From the NCBI RefSeq assembly GCF_036345255.1, contig NZ_CP107783.1, positions 9,479,001-9,543,000 on the forward strand: 64,000 nt of DNA, given 5' to 3'. The DNA is from Streptomyces sp. NBC_00569. GTDB lineage: Bacteria > Actinomycetota > Actinomycetes > Streptomycetales > Streptomycetaceae. The notes below the pieces were generated by a model that made no database searches, was not told where the DNA came from, and was given only the letters and a program-made list of their open reading frames with translations. Position 1 is the stretch's first letter, and each line of letters begins with the position of its first letter. The position numbers and the translations under genes are program-made. Shown here piece by piece: positions 11,755 through 26,635 of this stretch.

Positions 11755-13512
11755 ATGACACCGCTCCGTTCCTCGCGTGCGCGACTGCGCGGCGCAACCA
11801 CCGTTCTGGCAGTGCTGGCGACGCTGGGCACCTCGGCCGTGGCCGCCGCCGCGTCGCCCGCCGCCGCCAAGGACGTCTCGTTTCGCGGTTATCACGTACG
11901 CGTGCCCGGCAGTTGGCCGGTCGTCGACCTGGCCGCGAACCCCGACACCTGCGTGCGCTTCGACCGGCACGCGGTCTATGTCGGTCATCCCTCCGATGCC
12001 GGTCAGGCCACCTGCCCGCCCGGCATCGTCGGCCGTACCGAGGCGTTGGTCATCGAACCCCTCGACGCCAAGAGCCGTCAGAAGATGGACAGTTCGACAC
12101 GCAGGGCGCCCAAGGGCTCCGCGACGGCTGCTGCCGACGGGGCGAAGAGAGAGTCCCCCGGGCGCATACGTGAGGCGGTCCCCGCCGCAGGAGTACTCGT
12201 GACCGCCTCCGTCGGCGCTCACGAGGCCACCGTGCAGGGCATTCTGGACAGTGCCCGCCTGGACGAAGACGCGAAGGCGACGGCCACGACGCCGGGCACC
12301 GCCGAATCGGGCCAGGAGGCAACCCCGGCGGCGGCAGCTGTGGCGGCACAGCCCGGTACATACACGGGGCTGGGCTTCGACCCCTGCGCCGCGCCCTCCT
12401 CCTCGCAGATGTCCGCATGGTCCGCCTCGCCCTTCCGGGCCGTCGGGGTGTACATCAGCGGCATCAGCGCGGCGTGCGACCAGCCGAACCTGACGGCGTC
12501 GTGGGTCCAGACACAGACGTCGGCGGGCTGGCACATCATCCCCATCCACGTGGGTCTCCAGGCGCCGTGCAACAACTTCAGCCACAAGGTGTCGTCCACC
12601 CTGTCCACCGCCGCTGCTCAGGGACGCAGCGAGGCCCAGGAGTCCATGGGAGCCGCCGCGGCGCTGGGGCTGCCCGAGGGCAGTGTGCTCTACAACGACA
12701 TGGAGGCCTACGACCAGAACAACACCGCATGCAGTGACGCGGTGATGACGTTCCTCAGCGCGTGGACCGAGGAACTGCACGCGGGCGGTTATCTGTCCGG
12801 CGTGTACTCGTCCGCCGCGTCCGGGATGGTCGACCTGGCCGGGGAGTACACGGCCGGTACGTACACCAGCCCCGACCACATCTGGTTCGCCCGCTGGAAC
12901 GGCGCCGCCGACACCGACGCCACACCCTACGTGCCCGACGCGTACTGGGCCGACCACCAGCGCATCCACCAGCTCTCCGGGGACACCGACGAGACCTGGG
13001 GCGGCGTGACCATCAACATCGACCGGGACTACCTGGACGTGGACACGGGGCCGTTCGCCGGATCCTGCTCGGCGAACCTCGACTTCTCGCAGTACACGTC
13101 GGTCTCGGCCGGCTCCTCCGGCGGCCTGGTCAGCGCGGCGCAGTGCCTGCTGCTGCGTCAGGGACGCTACAACGGCGCCGTGGACGGCGCGTTCGGTTCG
13201 GGTACCACGACCGCCGTGCAGTCGTTCCAGGGATCCGTGTCCCTCCCGGTCACCGGCACGGTGGACTCCCACACCTGGACCGCGCTGCTGTCGGCCGGCA
13301 CCAAGCCGACTCTCCAGTCCGGCTCCGCCGGTACCGACGTCAAGCGGCTGCAGCGGGCGCTGATCGCGGCCCGAGGACAGAGCCTCACCATCGACGGCGA
13401 CTTCGGTCCCGCGACCACCTCGGCCGTCAAGGCCTACCAGACCGCCCAGGGCCTCACCTCCGACGGAATCGTCGGGAACGCGACCTGGTCGGCCCTGCAA
13501 GCCGGCAAGTGA
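11755..13512 (+). CDS. Secreted DUF1906-type glycoside-hydrolase-like protein with two peptidoglycan-binding domains
   Basis: A 585-aa exported protein. Residues 1 to about 38 are a Sec signal peptide ending in AAASPAAA. An uncharacterised region follows to about residue 200. A TIM-barrel domain of the DUF1906/Rv2525c-like type spans about 200-430, beginning with TYTGLGFDPCAAPS and containing VLYNDMEAYD, where the acidic residues sit at the expected strand end, and IHQLSGD. Two PG_binding_1 domains follow, at about 457-515 and 521-585 (TIDGDFGPATTSAVKAYQ). Such proteins bind the cell wall and probably cleave glycan or related polymers. No enzymatic activity is proven for the family. It precedes an NlpC/P60 gene by 31 nt. 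Confidence 0.85.
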   Translation: MTPLRSSRARLRGATTVLAVLATLGTSAVAAAASPAAAKDVSFRGYHVRVPGSWPVVDLAANPDTCVRFDRHAVYVGHPSDAGQATCPPGIVGRTEALVIEPLDAKSRQKMDSSTRRAPKGSATAAADGAKRESPGRIREAVPAAGVLVTASVGAHEATVQGILDSARLDEDAKATATTPGTAESGQEATPAAAAVAAQPGTYTGLGFDPCAAPSSSQMSAWSASPFRAVGVYISGISAACDQPNLTASWVQTQTSAGWHIIPIHVGLQAPCNNFSHKVSSTLSTAAAQGRSEAQESMGAAAALGLPEGSVLYNDMEAYDQNNTACSDAVMTFLSAWTEELHAGGYLSGVYSSAASGMVDLAGEYTAGTYTSPDHIWFARWNGAADTDATPYVPDAYWADHQRIHQLSGDTDETWGGVTINIDRDYLDVDTGPFAGSCSANLDFSQYTSVSAGSSGGLVSAAQCLLLRQGRYNGAVDGAFGSGTTTAVQSFQGSVSLPVTGTVDSHTWTALLSAGTKPTLQSGSAGTDVKRLQRALIAARGQSLTIDGDFGPATTSAVKAYQTAQGLTSDGIVGNATWSALQAGK

Positions 13513-13543: not shown

Positions 13544-14677
13544 ATGCCTGTGCACTACAGACGTCGCCGCGCCGCCCGCGGCCTGGGAGTCGCCCTGGCG
13601 GCGGGACTGCTCGCGATGGGCACGCTCGTGCCCGCTGCCGCCGCGACCGCGCCCGCGCGCATCATTCTGGTCTCGTCCGACTGCCCCAACACCATCCAGC
13701 AGGGGCAGGCGAGCGGATGTGTCACGGAACTGCAGACTCTGCTGAACGCCAACGGCGCCTCGCTGACGGTCGACGGCGACTTCGGGTCGGCCACCACCAC
13801 GGCCGTCAAGGCGTACCAGACCTCCCAGGGGCTCACCGCGGACGGCCTGGTCGGGCCCGCCACCAAGTCCGCGCTGTACTACGAGGACCCCTCCGTGCCG
13901 ATCGACCTGCGGTCACTGCGCTGTCCCGTGCAGCTGGAGACGGACGAGAACGACGGCTGCGTCACCGAGCTGCAGAACAAGCTCAACTCCAACGGGGCCG
14001 GCCTGACCGTGGACCATGATCTGGGCGCGGCCACCGTCACCGCGGTGCGCAACTACCAGACCTCGCACGGCCTGACGGCCACCGGGCTGGTGGATCCGCC
14101 GACCAAGGCCGAGCTGTACGGCGATGCGGCGCCGCAGCAGCCGGCCGACCTCGGCTCGGGACGCTACGCCGCGGTCGTCAGCTACGCGCAGCAGGCCACC
14201 GGCCAGAACATCCAGTACGTCTGGGGCGGCGGTCATGAGGACGGGGCGTTCTCGTTCGGCCCGTCGATCGGCATCTGCGACGACTACGGCGGCTCGATCC
14301 AGCCGTGCCCGGCAGACAAGGAAGTGGGTCTGGACTGCTCGGGCTTCACGCGGTGGCTGTACTGGCGCGCGGGGGCCGGCGACATCGGCCAGACCACACG
14401 CGACCAGGTGGTCAACCCGAAACTGGCGCAGGTCAGCGCGGCCGGTGCGATCCCGGGCGACCTGGTGTACTTCGGTGGCTCGGCGTCGACGGTGCATCAT
14501 GTCGGGGTCTACATCGGCAACGGGTTGATGATCAACGCTTCGCACACCGGAACCTACGTACGGCAGGACACCGTCGCCTCGCACAGCGACCTGCTCGGCT
14601 ACTACCACGTCACCGGTGTCACCTCGGCGGCCCTTGCCGACTCGCTGGCCGGTCCGGCGCCGCACGAGGCGGGCTGA
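13544..14677 (+). CDS. Secreted NlpC/P60 peptidoglycan endopeptidase with two peptidoglycan-binding domains
   Basis: A 377-aa exported enzyme. The signal peptide spans about 1-34 with a basic start (YRRRRAAR) and ends AAAATA. Two PG_binding_1 domains follow at about 45-112 and 126-192. The C-terminal NlpC/P60 domain has catalytic Cys265 in GLDCSGFTRW, His319 in VHHVGVYIG and a polar third position in MINASHTG. The family cleaves D-gamma-glutamyl-diaminopimelate or related stem-peptide bonds. Its repeats resemble those of the preceding gene, so the two proteins probably act together on the wall. A clear terminator follows. Confidence 0.9.
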   Translation: MPVHYRRRRAARGLGVALAAGLLAMGTLVPAAAATAPARIILVSSDCPNTIQQGQASGCVTELQTLLNANGASLTVDGDFGSATTTAVKAYQTSQGLTADGLVGPATKSALYYEDPSVPIDLRSLRCPVQLETDENDGCVTELQNKLNSNGAGLTVDHDLGAATVTAVRNYQTSHGLTATGLVDPPTKAELYGDAAPQQPADLGSGRYAAVVSYAQQATGQNIQYVWGGGHEDGAFSFGPSIGICDDYGGSIQPCPADKEVGLDCSGFTRWLYWRAGAGDIGQTTRDQVVNPKLAQVSAAGAIPGDLVYFGGSASTVHHVGVYIGNGLMINASHTGTYVRQDTVASHSDLLGYYHVTGVTSAALADSLAGPAPHEAG

Positions 14678-14762: not shown

Positions 14763-15779
14763 TCAGACGCCCGCCGGCTCGATCTCCACACCGACCACGC
14801 GTCGCGGTGTGGGGTGGAAGCAGGCGTGGTGCTGCCCCGCGTCACCGAGTTGTTCGAGGACCGGCCGGGCGGCGGTGCACCGCTCATCGGCGAAGGGGCA
14901 GCGAGGAGCGAAGAGGCAGCCGTCCGCCTGTGCCTTCTCGTCCAGCGGGGCGAGCGGCTCCAGCCGGTCGGGTCCGGGCTCCTCCCGTCCGCGCATGATG
15001 GGGACGGCGGACAGCAGACACTGGGTGTAGGGGTGCACGGGCGCCTGGATGATGTCGTCCGTCGGTCCCCGTTCGATCACCTGCCCCCGGTAGATGACGT
15101 GCAGTTCGCCCCCTGCGCCGATGTAGCGCGCGGTGGCCACGTCGTGGGTGATGAAGACCAGGGAGATCCCCAGCCGGGTGCGCAGATCGTGCAGCAGGGC
15201 GAGGATGCCGAGCCGCAACGACACATCGATCATCGAAACGGCTTCGTCGGCGATGAGCACTTCCGGGTCCACGGTCAGCGCACGGGCGATGACGACGCGC
15301 TGGCGCTGGCCGCCGGACAGCTGGTGGGGATACTTGGGCAGGACGCCGTCGGGTTCGAGGCCCACCAGTTCCAGCAGCTCCGCGGCCCGCCCGGGGACCC
15401 CCGAGGACGCGGCACCGGTCACTCTCGTGCGCATCCGCAGGGGGTCGCCGAGGATCTGGTCGATGGTGCGCGTGGGGTTGAGGGCGGAGTACGGATCCTG
15501 GTGGATCATCTGGATGCGGCGGAAGTACGGGGCGCGTTTGCGGGGCGGGAGTTTCGACATCTCCGTTCCGTCGATGAGGAGTTCACCGCCGTCGAATGTC
15601 TCGATCCCGGTGAGGATCTTGCCGAGCGTGGTCTTTCCGCATCCCGACTCGCCGATGAAGGAGACGGCTCCGCCCTTGGGCAGGGCGAAGTCCACGGAAC
15701 GCAGGGCGTGCACGGTGCGCTCGCCGGTGAAGGCGCCGCGGGTGCGGTAGGTGCGGGTGAGGCCGCGTGCCTCGATCAC
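14763..15779 (-). CDS. Oligopeptide-type ABC transporter ATPase (DppF/OppF)
   Basis: A 338-aa ATPase with Walker A GESGCGKTT, ABC signature LSGGQRQR, Walker B VLIADEAVSMID and switch His in FITHD. The C-terminal oligopeptide-type extension has the Cys-containing CLFAPRCPFADERC motif, which marks the DppD/DppF family. Walker B contains ADEA rather than the usual ADEP, a mild deviation. The start is GTG at 15779, overlapping the stop of the preceding ATPase gene (GTGA). It is the last gene of the five-gene importer next to murQ and probably energises muropeptide uptake. Confidence 0.93.
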   Translation of the reverse strand: MIEARGLTRTYRTRGAFTGERTVHALRSVDFALPKGGAVSFIGESGCGKTTLGKILTGIETFDGGELLIDGTEMSKLPPRKRAPYFRRIQMIHQDPYSALNPTRTIDQILGDPLRMRTRVTGAASSGVPGRAAELLELVGLEPDGVLPKYPHQLSGGQRQRVVIARALTVDPEVLIADEAVSMIDVSLRLGILALLHDLRTRLGISLVFITHDVATARYIGAGGELHVIYRGQVIERGPTDDIIQAPVHPYTQCLLSAVPIMRGREEPGPDRLEPLAPLDEKAQADGCLFAPRCPFADERCTAARPVLEQLGDAGQHHACFHPTPRRVVGVEIEPAGV

Positions 15780-16813
15780 GACGCGTCTCCCTTCGGGGTG
15801 GCGGGGGATGAGCGGACGAGGGCCGCGTCGGCATGGCAGGCCCGACGATGGCCGGGCCGGAACTCGTCCAGCTGCGGTTCCGAGCTGGTGCAGACCTCCG
15901 TGGCGAACGCGCAGCGCTCACGGAACACACAGCCTGTCTTCGGGATGGTCGTCAAGTCCGGCGGCCGGCCGGGCAGCGCCCGGGCGCTCGCGATGTCGCC
16001 GGTGATCCGGGCCGTGGCACGGATGAGGGCTTTCGTGTACGGGTGGGAGGGGGCGCGCAGGAGTTCCAGTGCCGGGCCGTGCTCGACGACGCGGCCGCCG
16101 TACATCACGGCGAGGTTGTCCGCGATCTCCGACACGACGCCCATGTCATGGGTGACGATCAGGGTGCTGAGGTGATTCTCCTCGTGCACCTCGCGGATGA
16201 TCTTCAGGACCGCGGCCTGGGAGAGCACGTCGAGGGCCGTGGTCGGCTCGTCGAGGATGAGCACCTTCGCGTTGAGGACGAGCGCGAACACGATGCCCAG
16301 GCGCTGGCGCATGCCGCCGGAGAGTTCGTGCTGGTAGGAGTCGAGGACACGCTTGCCGTCCAGGCCCATGCGCTCGGCCAGTTCGCGGGCGCGGTGGAGG
16401 AGGCCGGGGAGGTCCTTGACGTCGTGTGAGCGGCCGAGGTCCAGAATCTGACGGCCGATGGTGCGCAGCGGGTTCATGGAGTTCTGGGACGCCTGGAACA
16501 CGTAGCCCAGTGCCGAGCCGCGTACGGCGCGAAGCTGCTTGGCCGAGAGGGCGGTGACCTCGCCCACGCCGTCGACGTGGACGGTGCCGCCGCTCACGCG
16601 GCCCGGTTCGGGGATGGCGTTCATCAGGGCGAGGGCGAGTGTGGACTTGCCGGAGCCGGACTCACCGACGAGGCCGGTGATCCGGCCGCGGGGCAGGTCG
16701 AGCGTGACGCCCGCGATGGCCGGATACTCGGTCCCCTCGATGCGGTAGTGGACGGTCAGGTCGCGTACCCGGACCTCCGCCTCGGCGGTCGCCGTGGGGG
16801 TGTTCAGCGTCAT
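15776..16813 (-). CDS. Oligopeptide-type ABC transporter ATPase (DppD/OppD)
   Basis: A 345-aa ATPase with Walker A GESGSGKST, signature LSGGMRQR, Walker B VLILDEPTTALD and IVTHD. The C-terminal Cys-rich extension CVFRERCAFATEVC is typical of Opp/Dpp ATPases. The ATG at 16813 shares one base with the stop codon of the upstream permease (TGATG). It forms a heterodimer with the next ATPase. Longer in-frame extensions run into the permease gene and are rejected. Confidence 0.93.
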   Translation of the reverse strand: MTLNTPTATAEAEVRVRDLTVHYRIEGTEYPAIAGVTLDLPRGRITGLVGESGSGKSTLALALMNAIPEPGRVSGGTVHVDGVGEVTALSAKQLRAVRGSALGYVFQASQNSMNPLRTIGRQILDLGRSHDVKDLPGLLHRARELAERMGLDGKRVLDSYQHELSGGMRQRLGIVFALVLNAKVLILDEPTTALDVLSQAAVLKIIREVHEENHLSTLIVTHDMGVVSEIADNLAVMYGGRVVEHGPALELLRAPSHPYTKALIRATARITGDIASARALPGRPPDLTTIPKTGCVFRERCAFATEVCTSSEPQLDEFRPGHRRACHADAALVRSSPATPKGDAS

Positions 16814-17721
16814 CAGCGCTCCCTCAAACGCGGGTTGAACAGTTCGTCGATCGCATCGAGGAACAGCACGACGCCGGTGATCAGCAGCAGGATGCAGACC
16901 AGCGGGGCCAGGAGGTACATCAGCGCCTCCGGGCTCTGCAGCGCGCCGCCGGAGAACACCGCCTGGTTGATCATCACTCCCCAGTTGGTGGACGTGAACG
17001 GCACGATGCCCAGGAAGAACAGGCCGACCTGGGCCTCGACGAAGCTGACGACGGCCAGCAGCAGGTTCATCGCCACGTAGGGGGCGAGGTTGGGCAGGAG
17101 TTCCTTGACGAGGATGTGACGGTTGGACAGGCCAAGGCTCCGGGCCGCTTCGAGGAAGCCTCGCTCGCGCAGGCTGAGCGTCTGGGAGCGCACGGCGCGG
17201 GCGATGCCGCCCCAGCCGACGATGCCGAGTACCAGGCCCATCTCCAGCGGGCTGCCGAAGGCCCACACGGTGGAGAGCACGACCAGCACCGGGAGGCCGG
17301 GAATGGTGAGGATGAAGTCGGTGGCGCGCATCAGCAGCGAGTCGGCCAGGCCGCGGTGGAAGCCGGCCAGCAGGCCGACGGCGGTGCCGATGCCGACGGC
17401 GAACAGTCCGGCGATTGCACAGGTCATCAGGACGTAGCGGGAGCCGACGACCAGGGCCTGGAAGACGTCGGAGCCGGCGAAGTCGGTACCCAGCCAGTGC
17501 TCGGCGCTGGGCGGCGCGTAGACCGCGTTCGGGTCGACGGCGAGGTTGTCGGAGTAGAGCATCGGGCCGAAGGTGCCCATCAGCGTGAAGAACACCAGGA
17601 TGGCCAGACCGGCGACCCGGCCCGGCTTGCGCGTGAGCACCCGCCGGATGCCGGCCCAGTAGCGGCGGCGCGGCGTGACGACGGCGGGGCGCGGCTCGGC
17701 GGTGAGGGGTGCGATGGTCAT
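16813..17721 (-). CDS. Oligopeptide-type ABC transporter permease (DppC/OppC)
   Basis: A 302-aa membrane protein. It has an N-terminal OppC-type domain with a transmembrane segment around 36-55 and a periplasmic HWLGTDFAGSDVFQ motif typical of OppC. The BPD permease core has the EAA loop ERGFLEAARSLGLSNRHIL. It begins 4 nt after the stop of the DppB-type permease. It is part of the importer transcribed away from murQ. Confidence 0.93.
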   Translation of the reverse strand: MTIAPLTAEPRPAVVTPRRRYWAGIRRVLTRKPGRVAGLAILVFFTLMGTFGPMLYSDNLAVDPNAVYAPPSAEHWLGTDFAGSDVFQALVVGSRYVLMTCAIAGLFAVGIGTAVGLLAGFHRGLADSLLMRATDFILTIPGLPVLVVLSTVWAFGSPLEMGLVLGIVGWGGIARAVRSQTLSLRERGFLEAARSLGLSNRHILVKELLPNLAPYVAMNLLLAVVSFVEAQVGLFFLGIVPFTSTNWGVMINQAVFSGGALQSPEALMYLLAPLVCILLLITGVVLFLDAIDELFNPRLRER

Positions 17722-17725
17722 CGTC

Positions 17726-18718
17726 TCAGCGCCTCACTCGGGGGTCGATCACGGAGTAGAGCAGGTCCGCGATGATATTGGCGAGCACGACGGCGATGGT
17801 GATGATGAGGAACGCGCCGGTCATCAGCGGGTAGTCGCGGGAGCCGATGCTCTGCAGCAACAGCCGTCCCAGACCGGGGTAGTTGAAGGCGTTCTCGATC
17901 AGGATCGCGCCGCCGAAGAGATAGCCGCAGGCGATCGCCAGGGTGGTGAACAGCGGCAGGACGGCGTTGCGGCCGATGTAACGCAGCCGTGTGCCGGGGG
18001 TGATGCCGCGCAGTTCGGAGGCGAGGATGAAGTCGTCGCCGAGGACGGAGGCGACCGAGGAGCGCATGGAGAGCATCCAGCCGCCGTAGGAGATGAGTAC
18101 GTAGGTGGCGACGGGAAGGATCGCGTAGTAGGCGACGGAGCCGATGTACGCGGCGCTCCAGCCGGACTCCACCCAGGGGTCGTTGGTCTCGCCGTACGGC
18201 AACCAGCCCAGCTGGGTGTGGAAGACGGTGGTGAGCAGGATCGCGAGGACGAAGGACGGGATGCCGGCGATCAGCGAGGCGGACAGGCTGAGCGCGCCGC
18301 CCCAGCGGGAGGAGCGTTTGACCGCCGCCACCACACCGGCGGTGGTGCCGATGGCGAAGCTGATCAGCAGGCCGCTGAGGATGGGGATCAGCGTCCACGG
18401 CAGGGCGTTGCCGATCACTTGGGAGACCGGCACGCCGCTGTAGGAGATCGAGAGTCCGAGGTTGCCGTGCAGCAGGTCGGACACGTAGTTCACGTACTGG
18501 GTGGCCAGCGGGTCCTGCGAGGTGTAGCCGTAGATCACGGCGACCTTGGCCATGGCCTCGTCGGGGGACATGCCCTGGCTGAGGTAGCTCTCGTAGGCCA
18601 CCTTGCCCGGGCTGCCCGGCAGCGCGTGGACGAGGAAGAACGTGAACGAGGCCACGACCCAGACCATCACCGCGCCGCCGGCCAGCTTGGTCAGGACGGC
18701 GCGGACGAGTCCCTTCAC
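17726..18718 (-). CDS. Oligopeptide-type ABC transporter permease (DppB/OppB)
   Basis: A 330-aa permease with the OppB-type N-terminus, a long first transmembrane segment and a periplasmic region containing DPLATQYVNYVSDLLHGNLGLS. The core has a DDFILASELRGITPGTRLRY cytoplasmic loop. The GTG at 18718 is chosen over the ATG at 18724. The strong AAAGGAGG site lies only 2 nt from the ATG but 8 nt from the GTG, and the two starts differ by just two residues. It lies about 100 nt downstream of the binding-protein gene. Confidence 0.9.
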   Translation of the reverse strand: MKGLVRAVLTKLAGGAVMVWVVASFTFFLVHALPGSPGKVAYESYLSQGMSPDEAMAKVAVIYGYTSQDPLATQYVNYVSDLLHGNLGLSISYSGVPVSQVIGNALPWTLIPILSGLLISFAIGTTAGVVAAVKRSSRWGGALSLSASLIAGIPSFVLAILLTTVFHTQLGWLPYGETNDPWVESGWSAAYIGSVAYYAILPVATYVLISYGGWMLSMRSSVASVLGDDFILASELRGITPGTRLRYIGRNAVLPLFTTLAIACGYLFGGAILIENAFNYPGLGRLLLQSIGSRDYPLMTGAFLIITIAVVLANIIADLLYSVIDPRVRR

Positions 18719-18818
18719 GTTCATCACCTCCTTTCCGGGTGTGTGGTGCGGTGGGTGGGATGACACAGGCGGACAGGGCGGCGGCTGTGCGGCTGCCGCC
18801 CTGTCCTAGTGGGATCGC

Positions 18819-20645
18819 TTACTTCTTGGGCTGGATGTAGCCCTGCGCCATCCACATGCCGGGGAAGTTGCCCAGCAGGTCGTCCTGCCCGTTCTTGGGG
18901 AACTTGGTGAAGTTCTTCTCGTTGTAGAACTTCACGTTGGTGTAGTCCCAGATCGGGATGACCGGCACCTCCTGCGCGGTGACCTGGGCGAGCTGGTCGA
19001 TGATCGGCTTGGCCGACTCGTTGTCCAGGCCGGCGAGCTGCGCGGTCAGGTTCCCGGGGTTGACGCGCTTGCCGCCCACGGTGACGTCGACCGGGCCGTG
19101 CATCCAGTTGCCCGAGCCCTTCTTGTCCGTGTGGGAGGCCTTGTCACCGTTGGCGGTGAACCCGTCGGACTCGCCGTACAGGCGCTGGAAGTCGCCGCGC
19201 GCGGTGGAACCGACGGCGGTGAGCCACCAGCCCACGTCGAACTTCTCCGCGGCCATGTCCTCCTGGTACTTGCCGAAGTCGGCGGACAGCTGCGGCTTGG
19301 TGTCGATGCCGGCCGAGGTGAGCTGGTTGGCGATGACGGTGGAGGCGGAGATCCAGTCACTGAAGCCGTTGACGGTCTGCAGCGTCATCTTCCACTGCTT
19401 GCCGTTGGCCAGGTACCACTTGCCGCCCTTCTTGGTCAGGCCGGCCTTCCTGAACAGCGCCTCGGCCTTGGCCGCGTCGTGGGCGTAGGGCTCCAGAGCC
19501 GAGGACTGGTCCTTGGTCAGCCAGGCCTGGGTCATCTTGTCGACCATGCCGGTCGGCGCGGCGGCGGTCTCGCCGCCCACCGGCTGGCCCACCTTGGTGG
19601 CCGCCTCGCGGTCGAGCAGGTACGCCAGCCCCTGGCGCACCTCCTTCTTGTCGTACGGGGCGCGGCTCTGGTTGAAGGCCAGCGACGCCTGGACGTAGCT
19701 GACGCTCTCGGTGCGCTGGTAGCCCTTGCTCTCGATCTGCTTGAGCACGTTCTCGGGAATGGCGGTGAAGGGCGCGGCGTCCAGCTCGCCGTTCTTCATG
19801 AAGCCCCAGATCTGCTCGTTGCCCGAGTAGTGGCGGACGACGACCTGGCTGGGGCCCACCTTGTCGGCGGCGTAGAAGTTCTTGTTCTTGTCGAGGATGA
19901 CCGAGCCGGGGTTGAGCTTGCGCACCACGAACGGACCCGCCGAGATGTCTTTCTGGGGGGCGAAGGCCGCGACCTGCTTGCCTATCCCGGTCAGTTTGGC
20001 GGTCGCGGCCTTTGCCCCCTTCGCCTTGGCCGGATCGGCCTGCTGGCTCGCGTGGATGACGTCCCACATGTCGGCGGGGACCAAGTGGCCGTAGACCTTG
20101 GCGTTGACGATGACCTGGCCGAGGACCTGCTTGGTGAAGGTCAGGTTCTTGGTGCCGGGAGCCTGCTTGAACTCGAAGGCGCCTGCGCCGGCCGACTCCA
20201 CCGACGACACGTTGAGACCCTCGGTGAGACCACGGGCGCCGACCGCGGCGGCGCTCTGGGTGTAGCCGAGGGCCATCGACAGCCTGAGGTCGTCGAGGCT
20301 CACCGGGGTGCCGTCGGACCACTTCGCGCCGTCCTGGAGGTGGACGATCAGGGAGTCGCCCTGCATCTCCCAACTCTTCGCCAGGCCGGGGAAGTTGTCA
20401 TTGGGGTTGAGCGGGTTCTTCTTGTCCCAGCCGAGGCGCATGGTGTTGAAGCTGACGAAGCTGTTGCCGTTGGCGTTGTACGGGTTCATCGGCGCGCCGG
20501 GCGTGATCGGGTTGTTGGCGTCGACCGTGGTGAAGACACCGCCCCTGGCGCCGTTCTCGGCACCGGAGTCCGGTGCGCAAGCGGCGAGCGTTCCGAGCGT
20601 CGCCAGTGCGGCGGAGGCTGCGACGAAGTGCTTGAACCGGACCAT
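18819..20645 (-). CDS. Family 5 extracellular solute-binding lipoprotein, probable muropeptide/oligopeptide binder
   Basis: A 608-aa binding protein of the DppA/OppA family. The N-terminal signal MVRFKHFVAASAALATLG ends in the lipobox LAAC (lipidated Cys near residue 24). The mature chain has the SBP_bac_5 pattern, including WSDGTPVSLDDLRLSMALG and AYLLDREAATKV. It feeds the two permeases and two ATPases encoded downstream. It is transcribed divergently from murQ with a gap of about 280 nt, so the cargo is probably a muropeptide rather than a plain peptide. That substrate is inferred from context. Its large size and insertions are within the range for cluster C binding proteins. Confidence 0.92.
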   Translation of the reverse strand: MVRFKHFVAASAALATLGTLAACAPDSGAENGARGGVFTTVDANNPITPGAPMNPYNANGNSFVSFNTMRLGWDKKNPLNPNDNFPGLAKSWEMQGDSLIVHLQDGAKWSDGTPVSLDDLRLSMALGYTQSAAAVGARGLTEGLNVSSVESAGAGAFEFKQAPGTKNLTFTKQVLGQVIVNAKVYGHLVPADMWDVIHASQQADPAKAKGAKAATAKLTGIGKQVAAFAPQKDISAGPFVVRKLNPGSVILDKNKNFYAADKVGPSQVVVRHYSGNEQIWGFMKNGELDAAPFTAIPENVLKQIESKGYQRTESVSYVQASLAFNQSRAPYDKKEVRQGLAYLLDREAATKVGQPVGGETAAAPTGMVDKMTQAWLTKDQSSALEPYAHDAAKAEALFRKAGLTKKGGKWYLANGKQWKMTLQTVNGFSDWISASTVIANQLTSAGIDTKPQLSADFGKYQEDMAAEKFDVGWWLTAVGSTARGDFQRLYGESDGFTANGDKASHTDKKGSGNWMHGPVDVTVGGKRVNPGNLTAQLAGLDNESAKPIIDQLAQVTAQEVPVIPIWDYTNVKFYNEKNFTKFPKNGQDDLLGNFPGMWMAQGYIQPKK

Positions 20646-20763
20646 ACGCGTGGTCTCCGATCGGGTGACGGAACAAGGCGGAAGGAAGAGGCCCTGAAGG
20701 TGAGCAGACCGTAGGAGCGACCCTGTGGGCATGTCAATAATTTGCGTTGGCCGAATCCTGTTC

Positions 20764-20852
20764 GTAACTTCCCGCCCTCGGGCCCGTGCCGACAGGCCAT
20801 CGGGAGCGACGACCGAGGCTGATGGGCGATGCGGTCTACGTGAAAAAGTTAC
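20764..20852. promoter_or_regulatory. Divergent promoter region with inverted GTAACTT motifs, candidate RpiR/MurR sites
   Basis: Between the binding-protein gene and murQ, CGTAACTTCCC occurs at 20763-20773. Its inverted relative GAAAAAGTTACG is at 20842-20853. A weaker copy, GCAAAGTTGCG, follows near 20874. A related GTAATTTTTCG lies in the other divergent promoter of the locus near 24081. RpiR-family sites often combine A/T tracts with such half-sites. The assignment is tentative. Confidence 0.35.
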
Positions 20853-20923
20853 GTACAACCGGCAACCCCTGTGGCAAAGTTGCGCCGCGCTGATCCCCGC
20901 TCGCTGACCGAGAGGACTCCACG

Positions 20924-21832
20924 ATGCGCCCGCCGCGTGCCGAACGTGTCAACGCTCCTACAGAGACCCGCAATCCCCGCACCCGCGAGATCGACGACAT
21001 CCCCACTCTGGAGGCGTTGCGCCTGCTCAACGCCGAGGACCGGATCCCGGCCGACGCCGTCGCCGCCGTGCTGCCCGACCTGGCGCGGCTGGTCGACGAG
21101 ACGGCACAGCGGATCAGGGCAGGCGGCCGGTTGCACTATTTCGGCGCGGGGACGTCGGGCCGGCTCGCCGTGATGGACGCGGCCGAGCTGATCCCCACGT
21201 TCGGCATGCCGCCCGGCATCGTCGTGGCCCATCATGCGGGCGGGCCCCGCGCGTTGATCGAGCCCGTCGAGGGCGTGGAGGACAGCGCGGACGCCGGCGC
21301 GAGCGATGCGGCGGGGGTGGGATCCCGGGACGTCGCGATCGGTGTGGCCGCCAGCGGCCGCACCCCCTACGTCGGCGGGGCCCTGCGCGCCGCCCGGGCG
21401 GCCGGTGCCTTCACGGCTCTGGTGAGTGCCAACCCCGCGGCCGAACTCGCCGATGAGGTGGACGTTCACCTGGGCGTGGACACCGGACCCGAGGCCATCG
21501 CGGGCTCCACCCGCCTCAAGGCGGCCACCGCGCACAAGCTGGTCCTCAACAGCCTGTCCACGATGGTGATGGTCGCGCTGGGCCGGACGTACTCGAACCT
21601 GATGGTCGATGTGACGGCCACCAACGGCAAGTTGCGCGGTCGCCTCATCACCATCCTCGTGGAGGCCACCGGACTCGACGAGGAGACGTGCGCCGCCGCG
21701 CTGGCCGCCTCGGGCGGGGAACTGAAGACCGCTCTGGTCGGCCTGCTCGCCGCGTGTTCACCGCAGCAGGCGCGAGCGGCGCTGGCGGACAGCGGCGGAC
21801 GCGTCCGTGCGGCGCTGCGTCTCCTGGACTGA
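20924..21832 (+). CDS. murQ: N-acetylmuramic acid 6-phosphate etherase
   Basis: A 302-aa SIS-domain enzyme that cleaves the lactyl ether of MurNAc-6-phosphate to give GlcNAc-6-phosphate and D-lactate. Diagnostic stretches are the N-terminal IDDIPTLEALRLLNAED, YFGAGTSGRLAVMDAAELIPTFG at about 72-94 with Glu88 at the position of the catalytic Glu, and VEGVEDS at 115-121 with the second catalytic Glu. STRLKAATAHKLVLN is also present. The length matches MurQ. It acts in the cytoplasm at the end of the salvage pathway whose other parts (importer, RpiR regulator, hydrolase, NagZ) flank it. An AGAGGA ribosome site precedes the ATG. Confidence 0.95.
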   Translation: MRPPRAERVNAPTETRNPRTREIDDIPTLEALRLLNAEDRIPADAVAAVLPDLARLVDETAQRIRAGGRLHYFGAGTSGRLAVMDAAELIPTFGMPPGIVVAHHAGGPRALIEPVEGVEDSADAGASDAAGVGSRDVAIGVAASGRTPYVGGALRAARAAGAFTALVSANPAAELADEVDVHLGVDTGPEAIAGSTRLKAATAHKLVLNSLSTMVMVALGRTYSNLMVDVTATNGKLRGRLITILVEATGLDEETCAAALAASGGELKTALVGLLAACSPQQARAALADSGGRVRAALRLLD

Positions 21833-21851
21833 GGGCCGCGCGTCACTGCGG

Positions 21852-21883
21852 ACATTCCCGCCGGTCCGGACCGGCGGGAATGT
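21852..21883. terminator. Bidirectional terminator between murQ and the RpiR regulator gene
   Basis: A perfect 32-bp palindrome, ACATTCCCGCCGGTCC followed directly by its reverse complement, between two converging genes. The stem would fold with a small central loop. A DNA-binding site is possible, but the position favours termination. Confidence 0.8.
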
Positions 21884-21888
21884 TCCGG

Positions 21889-22830
21889 TCACCCCTTCGA
21901 GCGCCGCCGGTGCACCGCGCTGTACGTGCGTTCCAGCGCGCGCGTCGTGCGGCTGCTGTTGTGCTGGGCCACGCCGACGAACAGGCAGTCCACCAGCGTC
22001 AGCGCGGCGATCCTGCTGGACATCGCGCCGGTCCTGAAGGTGGTCTCGCGCGCGGCGGTGACGAGGACGTGATCGGCTACCTGGGCGATCTCGGAGCGCG
22101 GGAAGTTGGTGATCGCGATGGTGGTGGCGCCGTTGTCCGAGGCCTCCCGCATGGCCGTGACGGTGTCGGCGGACTCGCCGGTGTGCGAGATGCCGATCGC
22201 CAGGTCGCCCCGGCCGAGCAGGGCGGCCGACGTGACGGCGCCGTCCCGGTCCGGCCACGCGGTCGCGCGGTGCCCGATGCGGTGCAGCTTCTGCTGGAGG
22301 TCCAGCGCGATCAGCGCGCTCGCGCCGACCCCGTACAGGTCCAGGGCGCTGGCGCTGACGACGGCGTCGATCGCCCGCTCCAGGACGTCCAGGTCGATCT
22401 GGGCGATGGTCTCCTCCACCGCCCGGGCGTCGGCGAAGCCCAGCTTGCTCACCACGTTGGCCAAGGAGTCGCCGGGCTCGATCTCGCTGCCGGCACTCGA
22501 CCAGACCCGAGCGCCCTCCTTGCTCCCCGCGGCTGTGGCCAGCGCGATCCGCAGATCGGGGTACCCCTTGAGACCCACGGCCCGGCAGAACCGGATGACC
22601 GTCGTCTCGGATGTCCGGCATTCCGCGGCGAGTTCGCTGATGGTCCGCCCGGCCACTCCCACCGGATCGGCGATCGCCGCCTCGGCGACGCGCTGCTCCG
22701 ACGGCGGCAGCGAGGGCAGGAGCGCACGGATCTGCACCAGCACGGACGGTGCCGGTGCGGTGCGTTCCGCGCTGGGGACACGACGAGGGGTGTCGCCTCG
22801 TACGTTGTTCCGGTGACGTGAAGCAGTCAT
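21889..22830 (-). CDS. murR: RpiR/MurR family transcriptional regulator
   Basis: A 313-aa regulator. The N-terminal RpiR helix-turn-helix spans about residues 27-105 (ISELAAECRTSETTVIRFCRAVGLKGYPDLR). The C-terminal SIS sugar-phosphate-binding domain spans about 125-285, with LYGVGASALIALDLQQKL and ISHTGESADTV. In Bacillus and enterobacteria MurR senses MurNAc-6-phosphate and controls murQ and uptake genes. The equivalent role here follows from its position convergent to murQ. It lies 112 nt downstream of the beta-lactamase-fold hydrolase gene and may be co-transcribed with it. The first 25 residues are basic and not conserved, so the true start could be slightly downstream. Confidence 0.9.
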   Translation of the reverse strand: MTASRHRNNVRGDTPRRVPSAERTAPAPSVLVQIRALLPSLPPSEQRVAEAAIADPVGVAGRTISELAAECRTSETTVIRFCRAVGLKGYPDLRIALATAAGSKEGARVWSSAGSEIEPGDSLANVVSKLGFADARAVEETIAQIDLDVLERAIDAVVSASALDLYGVGASALIALDLQQKLHRIGHRATAWPDRDGAVTSAALLGRGDLAIGISHTGESADTVTAMREASDNGATTIAITNFPRSEIAQVADHVLVTAARETTFRTGAMSSRIAALTLVDCLFVGVAQHNSSRTTRALERTYSAVHRRRSKG

Positions 22831-22942
22831 GTGGGAATCCTACGGTTTCGGTGGGGGACGGGGAGCGGGCCGAGGGATTCGTCTGTCGCAGTCGGATTCG
22901 TCCGTGGCGTGCGCGGTCGGCGTGACGGAGGCGGCATGGTGG

Positions 22943-24028
22943 TCAACTGCCGTGGGAAAGGGCCGACTCGGTCCGGGCGACCGCCGCGTGCACCACGCGG
23001 CGCAATGTCTTCGCCCGCGCACCGCGCCCGTAGTGCACGGCGTTGGTCAGCAGCACCACCCAGATGCCGCTGACCGGGTCGAGTGCCAGGCTGGTCCCGG
23101 TGAAGCCGGTGTGCCCGGCACCGGACGAGGGCCAGTGCGGGGACATGTGGTCCCACTGGTCACCGGGCAGCGTCCAGCCCAGTCCCCGGGCGCCGTTCAG
23201 GCCGTGGGTCTGCAGGTTCAGCGCCTCGGTGCGCATCTGGCGGGAGAGCACCGATTCCTCGGAGAGCCAGCAGGCTCTCAGGTAGTGCGCCAGGTCGGGA
23301 GCGGTGCCGAACAGGCCCGCGTGCCCGGCGACACCTCCCAGACTCTCGGCGTTCTCGTCGTGGACGACGCCCCGCTTGGGCTCGCCGTCGGACGCGGCCT
23401 CGGTCGCGGCGGTGTGCGCACGCCACTCGGCGGGCGGCAGGTAGCGGACGGTTCCCAGGCCGAGCGGGTCGAGCACCAGGTCCCGAACGGCGTCGTCGAG
23501 CGGCGCATCGGCGACTCGGGCGACGATCTCACCGAGCAGGATGAACCCCACGTCGGAATACTGCACGACCCGGCCCGGCGCGTGTTCGAGGGGCTCGCGC
23601 AGCACGGCGGTCAACCGGTCGGCCGGGTCGCCGGGAAGCTGCCAGAAGTCCCGGTGCGGGGGCAACCCCGAAGTGTGCGACAGCAGATGACGAATCGTCA
23701 CCTGCTCCCTGCCCTTCCCGCGGAAGCGTGGAAGGTGACGGCTGACCGGGTCGTCGAGGCCCAGGTCTCCGCGATCGGCGAGCCGCAACACGGCCGGCAG
23801 GGTGGCCACGACCTTGGTCAGCGAGGCCAGGTCGAAGACGGTACCGGCGGTGACCGGACGGCCCGAGGGCCCCGAGGCGGTGACGCCGTAGGAGGAGGTG
23901 TGCACCTCACCCGCGGTCCCCCGTCCCGTGATCAGGACGGCGCCGGGCACCGTACCGTCCTCCACCGCACGCCGCACGAGGTCCGACGGATCGGTGATAT
24001 CTGCGACGCCTTCGGCTGCGGGCATCAT
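22943..24028 (-). CDS. Serine beta-lactamase-fold hydrolase, AmiE/YbbE-like candidate muramyl-peptide amidase
   Basis: A 361-aa PF00144 protein. The active site is visible as Ser69-x-x-Lys72 in SLTK, the YxN equivalent Tyr157-Ser-Asp in YSDVG, and HTG at 306-308 in place of KTG. The GGVAGHAGLFGTAPDLA stretch is typical of the AmpC/EstB-like group that includes YbbE of the B. subtilis muropeptide cluster, an N-acetylmuramyl-L-alanine amidase. No signal peptide is present, so it should act in the cytoplasm on imported muropeptide. The start has two adjacent ATGs and the first is used. It is divergent from the GNAT-NagZ pair. A generic esterase or D-aminopeptidase is the alternative. Confidence 0.85.
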   Translation of the reverse strand: MMPAAEGVADITDPSDLVRRAVEDGTVPGAVLITGRGTAGEVHTSSYGVTASGPSGRPVTAGTVFDLASLTKVVATLPAVLRLADRGDLGLDDPVSRHLPRFRGKGREQVTIRHLLSHTSGLPPHRDFWQLPGDPADRLTAVLREPLEHAPGRVVQYSDVGFILLGEIVARVADAPLDDAVRDLVLDPLGLGTVRYLPPAEWRAHTAATEAASDGEPKRGVVHDENAESLGGVAGHAGLFGTAPDLAHYLRACWLSEESVLSRQMRTEALNLQTHGLNGARGLGWTLPGDQWDHMSPHWPSSGAGHTGFTGTSLALDPVSGIWVVLLTNAVHYGRGARAKTLRRVVHAAVARTESALSHGS

Positions 24029-24080
24029 GGTCCTGCCTTCCGGTTGGGTACGGGGGGCTGACAGGCCGATCATCCCGCTG

Positions 24081-24091
24081 GTAATTTTTCG
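24081..24091. promoter_or_regulatory. GTAATTTTTCG element in the hydrolase/GNAT divergent promoter
   Basis: GTAATTTTTCG in an A/T-rich patch between the two divergent genes resembles the GTAACTTTTTC element (reverse strand) upstream of murQ. It may be a second RpiR site, but the two differ by a one-base gap, so confidence is low. Confidence 0.3.
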
Positions 24092-24160
24092 CCGCAACAA
24101 CGAACTCAAACGTTATTGATTTACGTGCGGTGTCTCCACCGACCCCCGAGGTGAGCAGCG

Positions 24161-25081
24161 ATGACGACCCCTCACTCCATCAGGACCGCGAACGAGAGCG
24201 ACCTTCCGGCCCTGCGCACCCTCGTCCAGGCAGCGCTCGTGCACGATCGGGACGCCGCTGATGTCCTCGACCTTCTGTGGACGCAGGCCGCGTCCCGCCC
24301 CCGGCTCCGGCTCCTGGCCGAGACCGACGGACACCCCGTGGGTCTCGTCGTCGGCGCGCTGGGACCGGCAACCGAGGACGCCCCCGCCACCGGCCACATC
24401 GACCTGATCGCCGTACACCCCCAGGCGCAGAGCCGGGGCATCGGACGGACCCTGCTCACCCGCGCCGAGGAACTCATCACCGCCGCCGGTGCCACCCGGT
24501 TGATGATGCGGGGCAGACCGCCGTACTACGCCTGGCCCGGCATCGACATCCGCTACACCCGAGCCGTCTGCCTCGCCGAGTCCAGCGGCTACACCCGCGG
24601 ACGCGAGGGCCTCAACATGAGCGTCGACCTGCCCACCGCGCCACTGGACACGGCAGCCGACGAAGCGCGTCTGGCCGCCGCCGGAGTGCAGGTCCGCCGC
24701 CTGACCGCGCAGGACGAGAAGCCGTTCCTCGCGTGGATGGCCCGGTGGGGCGGCACCTGGGACGGCGAGGCCGCACGCGCCCTCGCCTATGATCCGCCGC
24801 GCGGCCATGTCGCCGTCCGCGAGGGTGCAGACGCAGTCGAATACGTGGGATTCGCCTGTCACGGCGTCAACCGCCGCTCCTGGTTCGGCCCGATGGGCAC
24901 CGACTCCGCCCTGCGTGGCATGGGTGTCGGAACCGTACTGCTGCGGCGCTGCCTCGCCGACCAGCTCGCGGCCGGGCTCGACGAGGCCGAGATCGGCTGG
25001 ACCGGGCCCGTCCACTTCTACGCCCGTGGTGTGGAAGCGCGGCTCGGCCGGGTCTTCTGGACGTACTCCAAAGACATCTGA
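24161..25081 (+). CDS. GNAT family acetyltransferase with two GNAT-like domains
   Basis: A 306-aa protein. The first GNAT domain (about 1-150) has the acetyl-CoA loop VHPQAQSRGIGRTLL. The second (about 185-300) has a looser pyrophosphate loop, GTDSALRGMGVGTVLL. The B. subtilis muropeptide cluster also has an acetyltransferase-like gene (ybbJ) next to murQ, so the association may be functional. Possible targets are an amino sugar or muramyl intermediate, but nothing in the sequence fixes this. Its stop is 30 nt before nagZ, so they form one transcript. Confidence 0.88.
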   Translation: MTTPHSIRTANESDLPALRTLVQAALVHDRDAADVLDLLWTQAASRPRLRLLAETDGHPVGLVVGALGPATEDAPATGHIDLIAVHPQAQSRGIGRTLLTRAEELITAAGATRLMMRGRPPYYAWPGIDIRYTRAVCLAESSGYTRGREGLNMSVDLPTAPLDTAADEARLAAAGVQVRRLTAQDEKPFLAWMARWGGTWDGEAARALAYDPPRGHVAVREGADAVEYVGFACHGVNRRSWFGPMGTDSALRGMGVGTVLLRRCLADQLAAGLDEAEIGWTGPVHFYARGVEARLGRVFWTYSKDI

Positions 25082-25111
25082 GCCCCACGACCAGACTTGA
25101 GAGGATCCGTC

Positions 25112-26635
25112 ATGCCGTCCGTCCGCACCGGCCAGCCCTCCAGCGTGCTGCTGACCCTCGCCGACCAGGTGCTGCAGCCCGGCTTCCACGGCACCGTCGC
25201 CCCCGACTGGATCCGCCGCCGGCTCGGCGACGGGCTGCGCTCGCTCCTCCTCTTCGGCCCCAACATCCGAGATCGCGCGCAGACCGCCGCGCTCACCGAT
25301 GCCCTGCGCGCCGAGAACCCTGACGTACTGATCGCCGTCGACGAGGAAGGCGGCGACATCACCCGCCTCGAGGCGACGACCGGCTCCTCCTATCCCGGCA
25401 ACCTCGCCCTCGGCACCATCGACGACACCGCGGTGACCACTGCCGTCGCCCGCTCGATCGGCGCCGAGCTGCGTGCCGTCGGCATCGACCTCGACTACGC
25501 ACCCGACGCCGACGTCAACTCCAACCCCGACAACCCGGTCATCGGCACCCGCTCCTTCGGCGCGGACCCGGCACTGGCCGCCCGGCACACCGCTGCCTGG
25601 ATCCGCGGACTGCAGAGCGCGGGAACCGCCGCGTGCGCGAAACACTTTCCCGGCCACGGAGACACCGACAAGGACTCCCACACCGACCTGCCCGTTGTCG
25701 CCATGGACGCCGACCGGATCGCCGAACTGGCCCTGCCGCCCTTCCGCGCCGCCCTGGCCGCCGGCGCCCGAGCGGTGATGACCGCTCACCTCCTCATCCC
25801 CGCCCACGACGCCGAACACCCGGCCACCGTGAGCCCGCGCCTGGTCACGGGACTGCTCCGGGAAGAGCTGGGATTCGACGGACTCGTCGTCAGCGACGCC
25901 GTCGAAATGCGGGCCGTCCGCGCCCGCTACGGACTGACCGGGGCCGCCGTCCGCGCGCTGGCCGCGGGCGTGGACCTCGTCTGCCTCGGCAACACATCGG
26001 GCGAGGCCGAGTTCACCGCCCTGCGCACCGCCATCGCGCAGGCGGTGGAGCGCGGCGAGCTCCCGGAGGAGCGGCTGGCCGAAGCCGCCCACCGCACGGC
26101 CGGCTTCACCGCCTGGCAACGCGACCTGGCCAAGACCGCTGCCGTCGCGCCGCCGGACCGGGAGCTGGGACTAACGGCCGCCCGCCGTGCCCTTCGCCTC
26201 ACCCCACCCGGCGCACCCGCACTGCCTCTGAAGAAGGCCCCCGTCCTGGTCGAGTTCGGCATCCCCGGCACCGTCGTCCAAGGAGACGGCGTTCCGTGGG
26301 GCCTGGGCTCCGCCCTCTCCTCGCTCCTGCCCGGGACGGTGCGTGTCGCCCTGCCCGCAGTCGCCCCCTACGACGACGCCCGGACCCATTCGATCGTGGC
26401 CCAGGCCGCAGGCCGACCGCTGGTCATCGCCGTTCGCGACGCACACCGCCGTCCCGCCGTGGGCGACTGGCTTCGCGCGCTGCTCACCCGCCGTCCCGAC
26501 GCGATCATCGTGGAACTCGGCTTCCCACGCCCCGGCGTGGGCGGAGCCGTCCGCATCGACACACACGGAGCCGCCAGGGTCTGCGGACAGGCCGCCGCGG
26601 AGGCCCTCGCCGGACGGACACTGCCCCACACCTGA
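25112..26635 (+). CDS. nagZ: Glycoside hydrolase family 3 beta-N-acetylglucosaminidase, NagZ type
   Basis: A 507-aa GH3 enzyme. It carries the NagZ signature KHFPGHGDTDKDSHTDLP at 177-194, containing the Asp188/His190 pair that acts as acid/base in NagZ enzymes, and the nucleophile Asp262 in VVSDAVEM. It also has a C-terminal second domain, as in Gram-positive NagZ. There is no signal peptide, so it should cleave GlcNAc from imported GlcNAc-MurNAc muropeptides in the cytoplasm. The ATG at 25112 has a GAGGA ribosome site 6 nt upstream. A TTG-initiated frame 5 codons earlier would overlap that site. Confidence 0.93.
   Translation: MPSVRTGQPSSVLLTLADQVLQPGFHGTVAPDWIRRRLGDGLRSLLLFGPNIRDRAQTAALTDALRAENPDVLIAVDEEGGDITRLEATTGSSYPGNLALGTIDDTAVTTAVARSIGAELRAVGIDLDYAPDADVNSNPDNPVIGTRSFGADPALAARHTAAWIRGLQSAGTAACAKHFPGHGDTDKDSHTDLPVVAMDADRIAELALPPFRAALAAGARAVMTAHLLIPAHDAEHPATVSPRLVTGLLREELGFDGLVVSDAVEMRAVRARYGLTGAAVRALAAGVDLVCLGNTSGEAEFTALRTAIAQAVERGELPEERLAEAAHRTAGFTAWQRDLAKTAAVAPPDRELGLTAARRALRLTPPGAPALPLKKAPVLVEFGIPGTVVQGDGVPWGLGSALSSLLPGTVRVALPAVAPYDDARTHSIVAQAAGRPLVIAVRDAHRRPAVGDWLRALLTRRPDAIIVELGFPRPGVGGAVRIDTHGAARVCGQAAAEALAGRTLPHT

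Follow-up and report, generated by a model that had tools for sequence, protein, structure and literature searches.

How do actinomycetes import N-acetylmuramic acid (MurNAc) and muropeptides? The question is raised by a ten-gene locus at positions 14763-26635 of a 64,000-nucleotide (64-kb) stretch of the Streptomyces sp. NBC_00569 chromosome (contig NZ_CP107783.1, positions 9,479,001 to 9,543,000), the whole of which is referred to here as the window. Peptidoglycan fragments also signal development and antibiotic production in streptomycetes. In the account given in PMC5061867, a Streptomyces coelicolor murQ mutant accumulates MurNAc-6-phosphate though a MurP orthologue is missing, and the part of PMC13041923 that bears on mycobacteria describes their MurNAc uptake as unexplained. 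The locus is likely to encode a MurR-controlled muropeptide salvage system, in which an ATP-binding cassette (ABC) importer would feed cytoplasmic NagZ and MurQ. It offers a named importer, a putative operator and a candidate kinase in easily cultured strains.

Families were assigned with Pfam and NCBIfam, which confirmed all ten genes and their positions. Five genes, all on the minus strand, form one operon with every component of a Dpp/Opp-type ABC importer. These are a substrate-binding lipoprotein (SBP; 18819..20645) with an SBP_bac_5 domain and the lipobox LAAC, which served as the family marker of the system; two BPD_transp_1 permeases, dppB-like (17726..18724) and dppC-like (16813..17721, also with OppC_N); and two ATPases with ABC_tran and oligo_HPY domains, dppD-like (15776..16813) and dppF-like (14763..15779). 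Counted from dppF to the binding-protein gene the gaps are -4, -1, 4 and 94 bp, the first being the overlap of dppD with dppF. The dppB start was taken from a codon-usage caller; 18724 is likelier than 18766, to which the longest frame extends. The subunits matched only broader families, below NCBIfam equivalog cut-offs, and the dppF-like ATPase is 70-87% identical to the syntenic gene in annotated f1 and Catenulisporales loci. The importer runs left and murQ runs right from a 278-bp divergent region, as the initial annotation had described.

The remaining five genes are those of the salvage pathway that the same annotation had named. The murQ1 gene (20924..21832, plus strand) encodes a predicted MurNAc-6-phosphate etherase that scores 305.4 bits with TIGR00274 (cut-off 302) and is 44% identical to E. 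coli MurQ. Tail to tail with it lies murR1 (21889..22830, minus strand), whose product has the RpiR architecture (HTH_6 plus SIS) and reaches 130 bits with the MurR-specific NCBIfam model, whose cut-off is 408. The same strand carries, upstream of murR1, an AmiE/YfeW-like serine beta-lactamase-family hydrolase (22943..24028; Beta-lactamase domain, 1e-65), for which 24028 is a likelier start than 24109, a ribosome-binding-site-like stretch lying upstream. Its best NCBIfam match is PBP4B/YfeW, below cut-off, and it is 33% identical over 309 columns to E. coli YfeW, whose gene adjoins murP. The SxxK motif is invariant in 11 aligned orthologues, and the pattern fits 21/24 hydrolase gene calls; family and motif make the protein a putative N-acetylmuramyl-L-alanine amidase. 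A 306-residue GNAT acetyltransferase (24161..25081, plus strand, Acetyltransf_1) diverges from the hydrolase gene across a shorter region and precedes nagZ (25097..26635, plus strand, likely start 25112). The nagZ product has a Glyco_hydro_3 domain and scores 197 bits with PRK05337, just under the cut-off of 207. Its nearest solved proteins are glycoside hydrolase family 3 (GH3) N-acetylglucosaminidases, with B. subtilis YbbD/NagZ (3bmx) among the top matches (E 2.3e-63), and the Asp-His motif KHFPGHGDTDKDSH, found in 15/19 NagZ calls of relatives, stands at residue 182. By domain and motif the focal GH3 protein is a NagZ. The strands define four transcription units, two running left (SBP to dppBCDF; hydrolase to murR) and two running right (murQ; GNAT to nagZ). 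Neither NagZ nor the hydrolase has a signal-peptide-like N terminus, judged by hydrophobicity and by eye, and on this heuristic both look cytoplasmic, in agreement with the initial annotation.

The importer is found beside murQ or nagZ well outside this strain. Genes and neighbours in relatives were named with a caller trained on the codon usage of the window plus blastp against the window and a few other proteins, so that starts are approximate. Orthologues of the binding protein (E<=1e-100) were present in 6/150 genomes of a family sample, the focal genome included, and in 5/5 of the others the importer diverges from murQ, which is followed by murR and the hydrolase. A profile search with the binding protein over a class-level sample of 394 genomes gave 21 matches, spread over 18 genomes and including the focal one. 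At 20/20 non-focal places, from two other families (f17 and f19), either murQ (16) or nagZ without murQ (4) lies beside SBP-dppBCDF. The f17 places have murQ within about 6 kb of the importer (16/16), 6 of them also with nagZ and a BadF kinase gene, and in the f19 places (4/4) murQ is missing and nagZ comes immediately after dppF. A search from the murQ side gave 16 loci, comprising 12 with a murQ at least 64% identical and 4 at 42-49% (L025-L028) that fell outside gene annotation. The importer stands beside murQ in 10/12 of the former; of the two exceptions, for L018 there is no sequence upstream, and in L021 the ABC importer is another one, of the sugar type. Two of these ten loci, L015 and L022, belong to organisms already represented in the family sample, as L038 and L039. 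Because the importer recurs beside murQ and nagZ in distant relatives, its association with MurNAc salvage is not chance, and the idea of a chance neighbour was rejected on the same adjacency in the family sample and in the two other families. The grouping of the importer with murQ, murR and nagZ, proposed from the window only, is thus borne out by synteny and by a shared palindrome. Among Streptomyces the importer was found in 1/392 genomes, the focal one, when the three best candidates per genome were scored; this rarity means that the S. coelicolor case is not directly answered. A 96% identical binding protein (P0023) is annotated 'unclassified Streptomyces'.

What, then, is imported? The neighbourhoods of relatives are informative. 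AnmK is encoded in the neighbourhood at L013, L014, L015/L038, L016, L020, L024 and L039; its gene follows dppF after 81 bp (L013) and 78 bp (L014) and overlaps it by 4 bp in three Catenulispora loci (L016, L020, L024). This overlap points to (anhydro)muropeptides as the cargo. LdcA occurs at L016, L020 and L024, and at 43-45% identity at L035-L037; NamZ at L016, L018, L022/L039 and several f17 loci; a D-aminopeptidase M55 and an S9 peptidase at L035-L037; and a BadF kinase at L015/L038 and six f17 loci. Judged by their families, the products of these genes together cover each bond of an anhydro-muropeptide. Genome-wide, AnmK is encoded in 19/23 importer-bearing genomes, the others being the focal genome, G057, G084 and G400. 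In the family sample a long AnmK match was found in 29/150 genomes and any match at E<=0.001 in 55/150, most of the remainder being short; 3/6 importer-bearing genomes there have AnmK, a modest association. A gene for a pyridoxal phosphate-dependent protein of the ornithine/diaminopimelate-decarboxylase fold lies near or between the GNAT gene and nagZ in L036 (17441-18814), L015, L022, L035 and L037-L039, and its product may act on the diaminopimelate or a D-amino acid in an imported peptide.

The binding protein itself was modelled with AlphaFold2. With 14 sequences the pLDDT was only 61, and the model used was built on 88 (pLDDT 89). The nearest solved folds are chitin-oligosaccharide-binding proteins, the closest being Vibrio VcCBP/VhCBP at ~19-20% identity, and an aromatic-x-Asp (FxD) motif aligns with Vibrio Trp363/Asp365; a counterpart of Vibrio Trp513 was not assignable. 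This resemblance suggests that the protein may grip the sugar part of its cargo. The initial annotation had called the importer oligopeptide-type, which holds for the transporter family, whereas the nearest solved relatives of the binding protein bind chitin oligosaccharides or mannans.

Peptide binders also rank high in the fold list, and this bears on the first of two rival explanations: that the importer takes only free murein peptides, like E. coli Opp/MppA or B. subtilis DppE, with murQ and nagZ co-regulated for sugars that enter via MurP or another route. The transporter family is a peptide one, and in Kitasatospora-group loci the cluster has LdcA, M55 and S9 peptidase genes on its flanks. 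The binding protein is 20-21% identical to E. coli MppA and DppA, too divergent for a comparison of pockets. Set beside the chitooligosaccharide-like fold and the anmK-dppF overlap, we regard import of free peptides as improbable. Slightly less probable still is import of peptide-free amino-sugar oligosaccharides (chitobiose or GlcNAc-MurNAc, GlcNAc being N-acetylglucosamine), with the hydrolase and peptidases acting elsewhere, which the fold, the FxD motif and the importer-plus-nagZ clusters of f19 would suit, but most clusters keep murQ and the amidase-like hydrolase together with the importer, and chitobiose uptake would need neither. We infer that the cargo is a disaccharide-peptide.

If the sugar arrives through an ABC importer, a kinase has to act before MurQ. 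Among the ten genes there is neither a MurP nor a MurNAc kinase, and tblastn with the AnmK of a relative found no credible anmK or anmK remnant in the window (best E 1.6). The earlier statement that a sugar kinase is needed is supported, and none is in the locus. The initial annotation had suggested looking for AnmK or MurK homologues elsewhere in the genome. The complete 10.3-Mb chromosome encodes two BadF-family kinases (PF01869) over the cut-off. One (L010 9467-10519) shares 41-45% identity with the BadF kinases encoded next to murQ or murR in relatives (L078, L081-L083); the other (L009 9171-10133) shares 28-30% with them. For the L010 kinase, a probable GlcNAc kinase is a slightly better match than the MurNAc/GlcNAc kinase 8zo3 (1.3e-13). 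The genome also encodes, unlinked to the locus, a protein of the NamZ family whose N terminus resembles a secretion signal (L102) and, at 2.67 Mb, a row of LdcA-S9-M20-M55 peptidase genes (L103 7192-12382) that are 44-55% identical to importer-flanking Kitasatospora-group genes or to Catenulispora LdcA.

A second salvage locus lies at 5.60 Mb (L008 8290-11837), with the order murR2-murQ2-EIIBC, the last encoding a MurP-like component of a phosphotransferase system (PTS). MurQ2 is 49-50% identical to MurQ1. The EIIBC protein is 37% identical to E. coli MurP, and its best NCBIfam model is the MurNAc transporter (339 of 516 bits, below cut-off). A genome without MurP was therefore rejected. The proposal that the importer stands in place of the MurP PTS is correct for the locus but not for the genome: given the second locus, the genome has the importer in addition to MurP, not as a substitute for it. 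A gene that resembles groEL by eye lies near the second locus.

How the ten genes could be controlled together is suggested by a 13-bp palindrome. A symmetric position weight matrix (PWM) was built from 14 sites (7 distinct; GTCAATnAkTTrC) picked by eye in importer/murQ intergenic regions. The two best matches in the window are at 20733..20745, in the importer/murQ divergent region, where the site is conserved across loci, and, second, at 24112..24124, in the hydrolase/GNAT divergent region, a site absent from the training set. When the matrix was trained without the focal site, their scores were 20.6 and 20.2, against 14.3 for the next match and a maximum of 17.4 over 20 simulated windows. 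Across 975 kb of other loci, all 19 matches at or above that score fall in murQ/murR loci, many of them being training sites or one site seen in overlapping loci. Four clusters with murR and AnmK that have no such importer (L081, L082, L083 and L085) carry equally strong matches. In f17, on which the matrix was not trained, the best match lies 53-105 bp upstream of the SBP gene in 14/16 loci and the second-best does so in the other two, with scores of 9.9-17.4 that are individually within the simulated range. The hydrolase/GNAT-region match ranks second in L013 and L014. Both palindromes are putative MurR operators.

The proposed pathway is as follows. Autolysis or predation would release muropeptides. 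The lipoprotein would capture the GlcNAc-MurNAc part, and DppBCDF would import (anhydro)GlcNAc-MurNAc fragments, probably with the peptide. In the cytoplasm NagZ would remove GlcNAc and the hydrolase the peptide. A sugar kinase would then make MurNAc-6-phosphate; in relatives this may be AnmK, a BadF/MurK-type kinase or both, and the probable candidate here is a BadF kinase unlinked to the locus, at 8.56 Mb. MurQ would convert MurNAc-6-phosphate to GlcNAc-6-phosphate and D-lactate. MurR would sense a product, probably MurNAc-6-phosphate, and open both divergent promoter regions, one palindrome in each allowing it to control all four transcription units.

Several observations weigh against this pathway. 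No AnmK was found in the focal genome by a PF03702 search, and the idea that AnmK merely lies outside the window was rejected with it. Vibrio N409 and F411 are not conserved in the binding protein (L475, A477). Of 9 genomes in the family sample that have a murQ1-type gene (E<=1e-90), 3 had no binding protein at the orthologue threshold, and one of the three has BadF-murQ-nagZ instead (L078). A match upstream of the SBP gene was found in 1/4 f19 loci, the operator being weak in the other 3/4, and the hydrolase/GNAT-region operator is weak in Kitasatospora-group and Catenulispora loci. Searched genome-wide, the IUPAC pattern gave 6 matches (5 distinct places), as many as the 6 of its reversed control; two of the five places are the locus sites, and a third strong palindrome at 7.72 Mb (L101) lies among genes that by eye look unrelated.

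Import of muropeptides by an ABC transporter is known from YejBEF-YepA of Agrobacterium tumefaciens, as described in PMC9790009, and E. coli and B. subtilis have known MurNAc operons (PMC5061867). A joined importer-murQ cluster in Actinomycetota was not found described among the titles and abstracts listed by searches of open-licence literature. The murQ-murR-murP-amiE-nagZ-ybbC cluster of B. subtilis, as presented in PMC5061867, shares MurQ, a MurR-type regulator, a beta-lactamase-family hydrolase and NagZ with the focal locus, and NamZ (YbbC family) joins in several relatives. It differs in having the MurP PTS where the focal locus has a five-gene ABC importer, in the anmK or BadF kinase genes that join in relatives of the focal locus, and in that B. 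subtilis is described there as degrading muropeptides outside the cell, whereas the focal enzymes look cytoplasmic. The E. coli murR / murQ-murP-yfeW genes share MurQ, the YfeW-like hydrolase and an RpiR-type regulator with the locus, but E. coli imports by PTS.

The A. tumefaciens system likewise uses an Opp-family ABC importer for muropeptides instead of AmpG. By the description in PMC9790009, however, the gene for its peptidoglycan-specific binding protein is not next to those of the transporter, and MurNAc is processed through AnmK/MupP/AmgK/MurU, whereas the focal importer, murQ, murR and nagZ form one cluster. Tannerella forsythia murT-murK-murQ, in the part of PMC5790795 concerned, likewise combines PTS-independent uptake, a BadF-family MurNAc kinase and MurQ, but its transporter is of the sodium-symporter type; L081-L083 look similar. 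The Vibrio proteins, as characterized in the portion of PMC8449061 concerned, share the closest fold and the aromatic-x-Asp motif, not N409/F411. The best reading of the locus is an actinobacterial ABC counterpart of AmpG/YejBEF-YepA. A broader proposal, which we favour only slightly, is that it represents a dedicated actinobacterial muropeptide importer replacing AmpG functionally: a distinct SBP family with a chitobiose-type sugar site, conserved across five or more actinobacterial groups and invariably linked to NagZ, MurQ or AnmK and, except in f19, usually to a single MurR-type operator, that would import whole GlcNAc-(anhydro)MurNAc-peptides in monoderms.

Other arrangements were seen in passing. 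The Kitasatospora-like loci L081-L083 have murQ-murR-BadF kinase-putative sodium/solute symporter (by eye)-AnmK with the same palindrome, a third transport solution. Microtetraspora niveoalba (L021 9971-14954) has murQ, then sugar-type ABC importer genes (by eye), then murR, a fourth. Binding proteins 41-43% identical to the focal one were found in Camelliibacillus, Alicyclobacillus and Sulfobacillus (P0077, P0100, P0106), and the family may extend to Bacillota. Finally, two plus-strand genes are convergent with dppF and occupy the place of anmK in several relatives. In one (11755-13512) an Rv2525c-like glycoside-hydrolase domain is combined with peptidoglycan-binding domains; in the other (13544-14677) peptidoglycan-binding domains accompany NlpC/P60. 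Their products could release cell-wall fragments.

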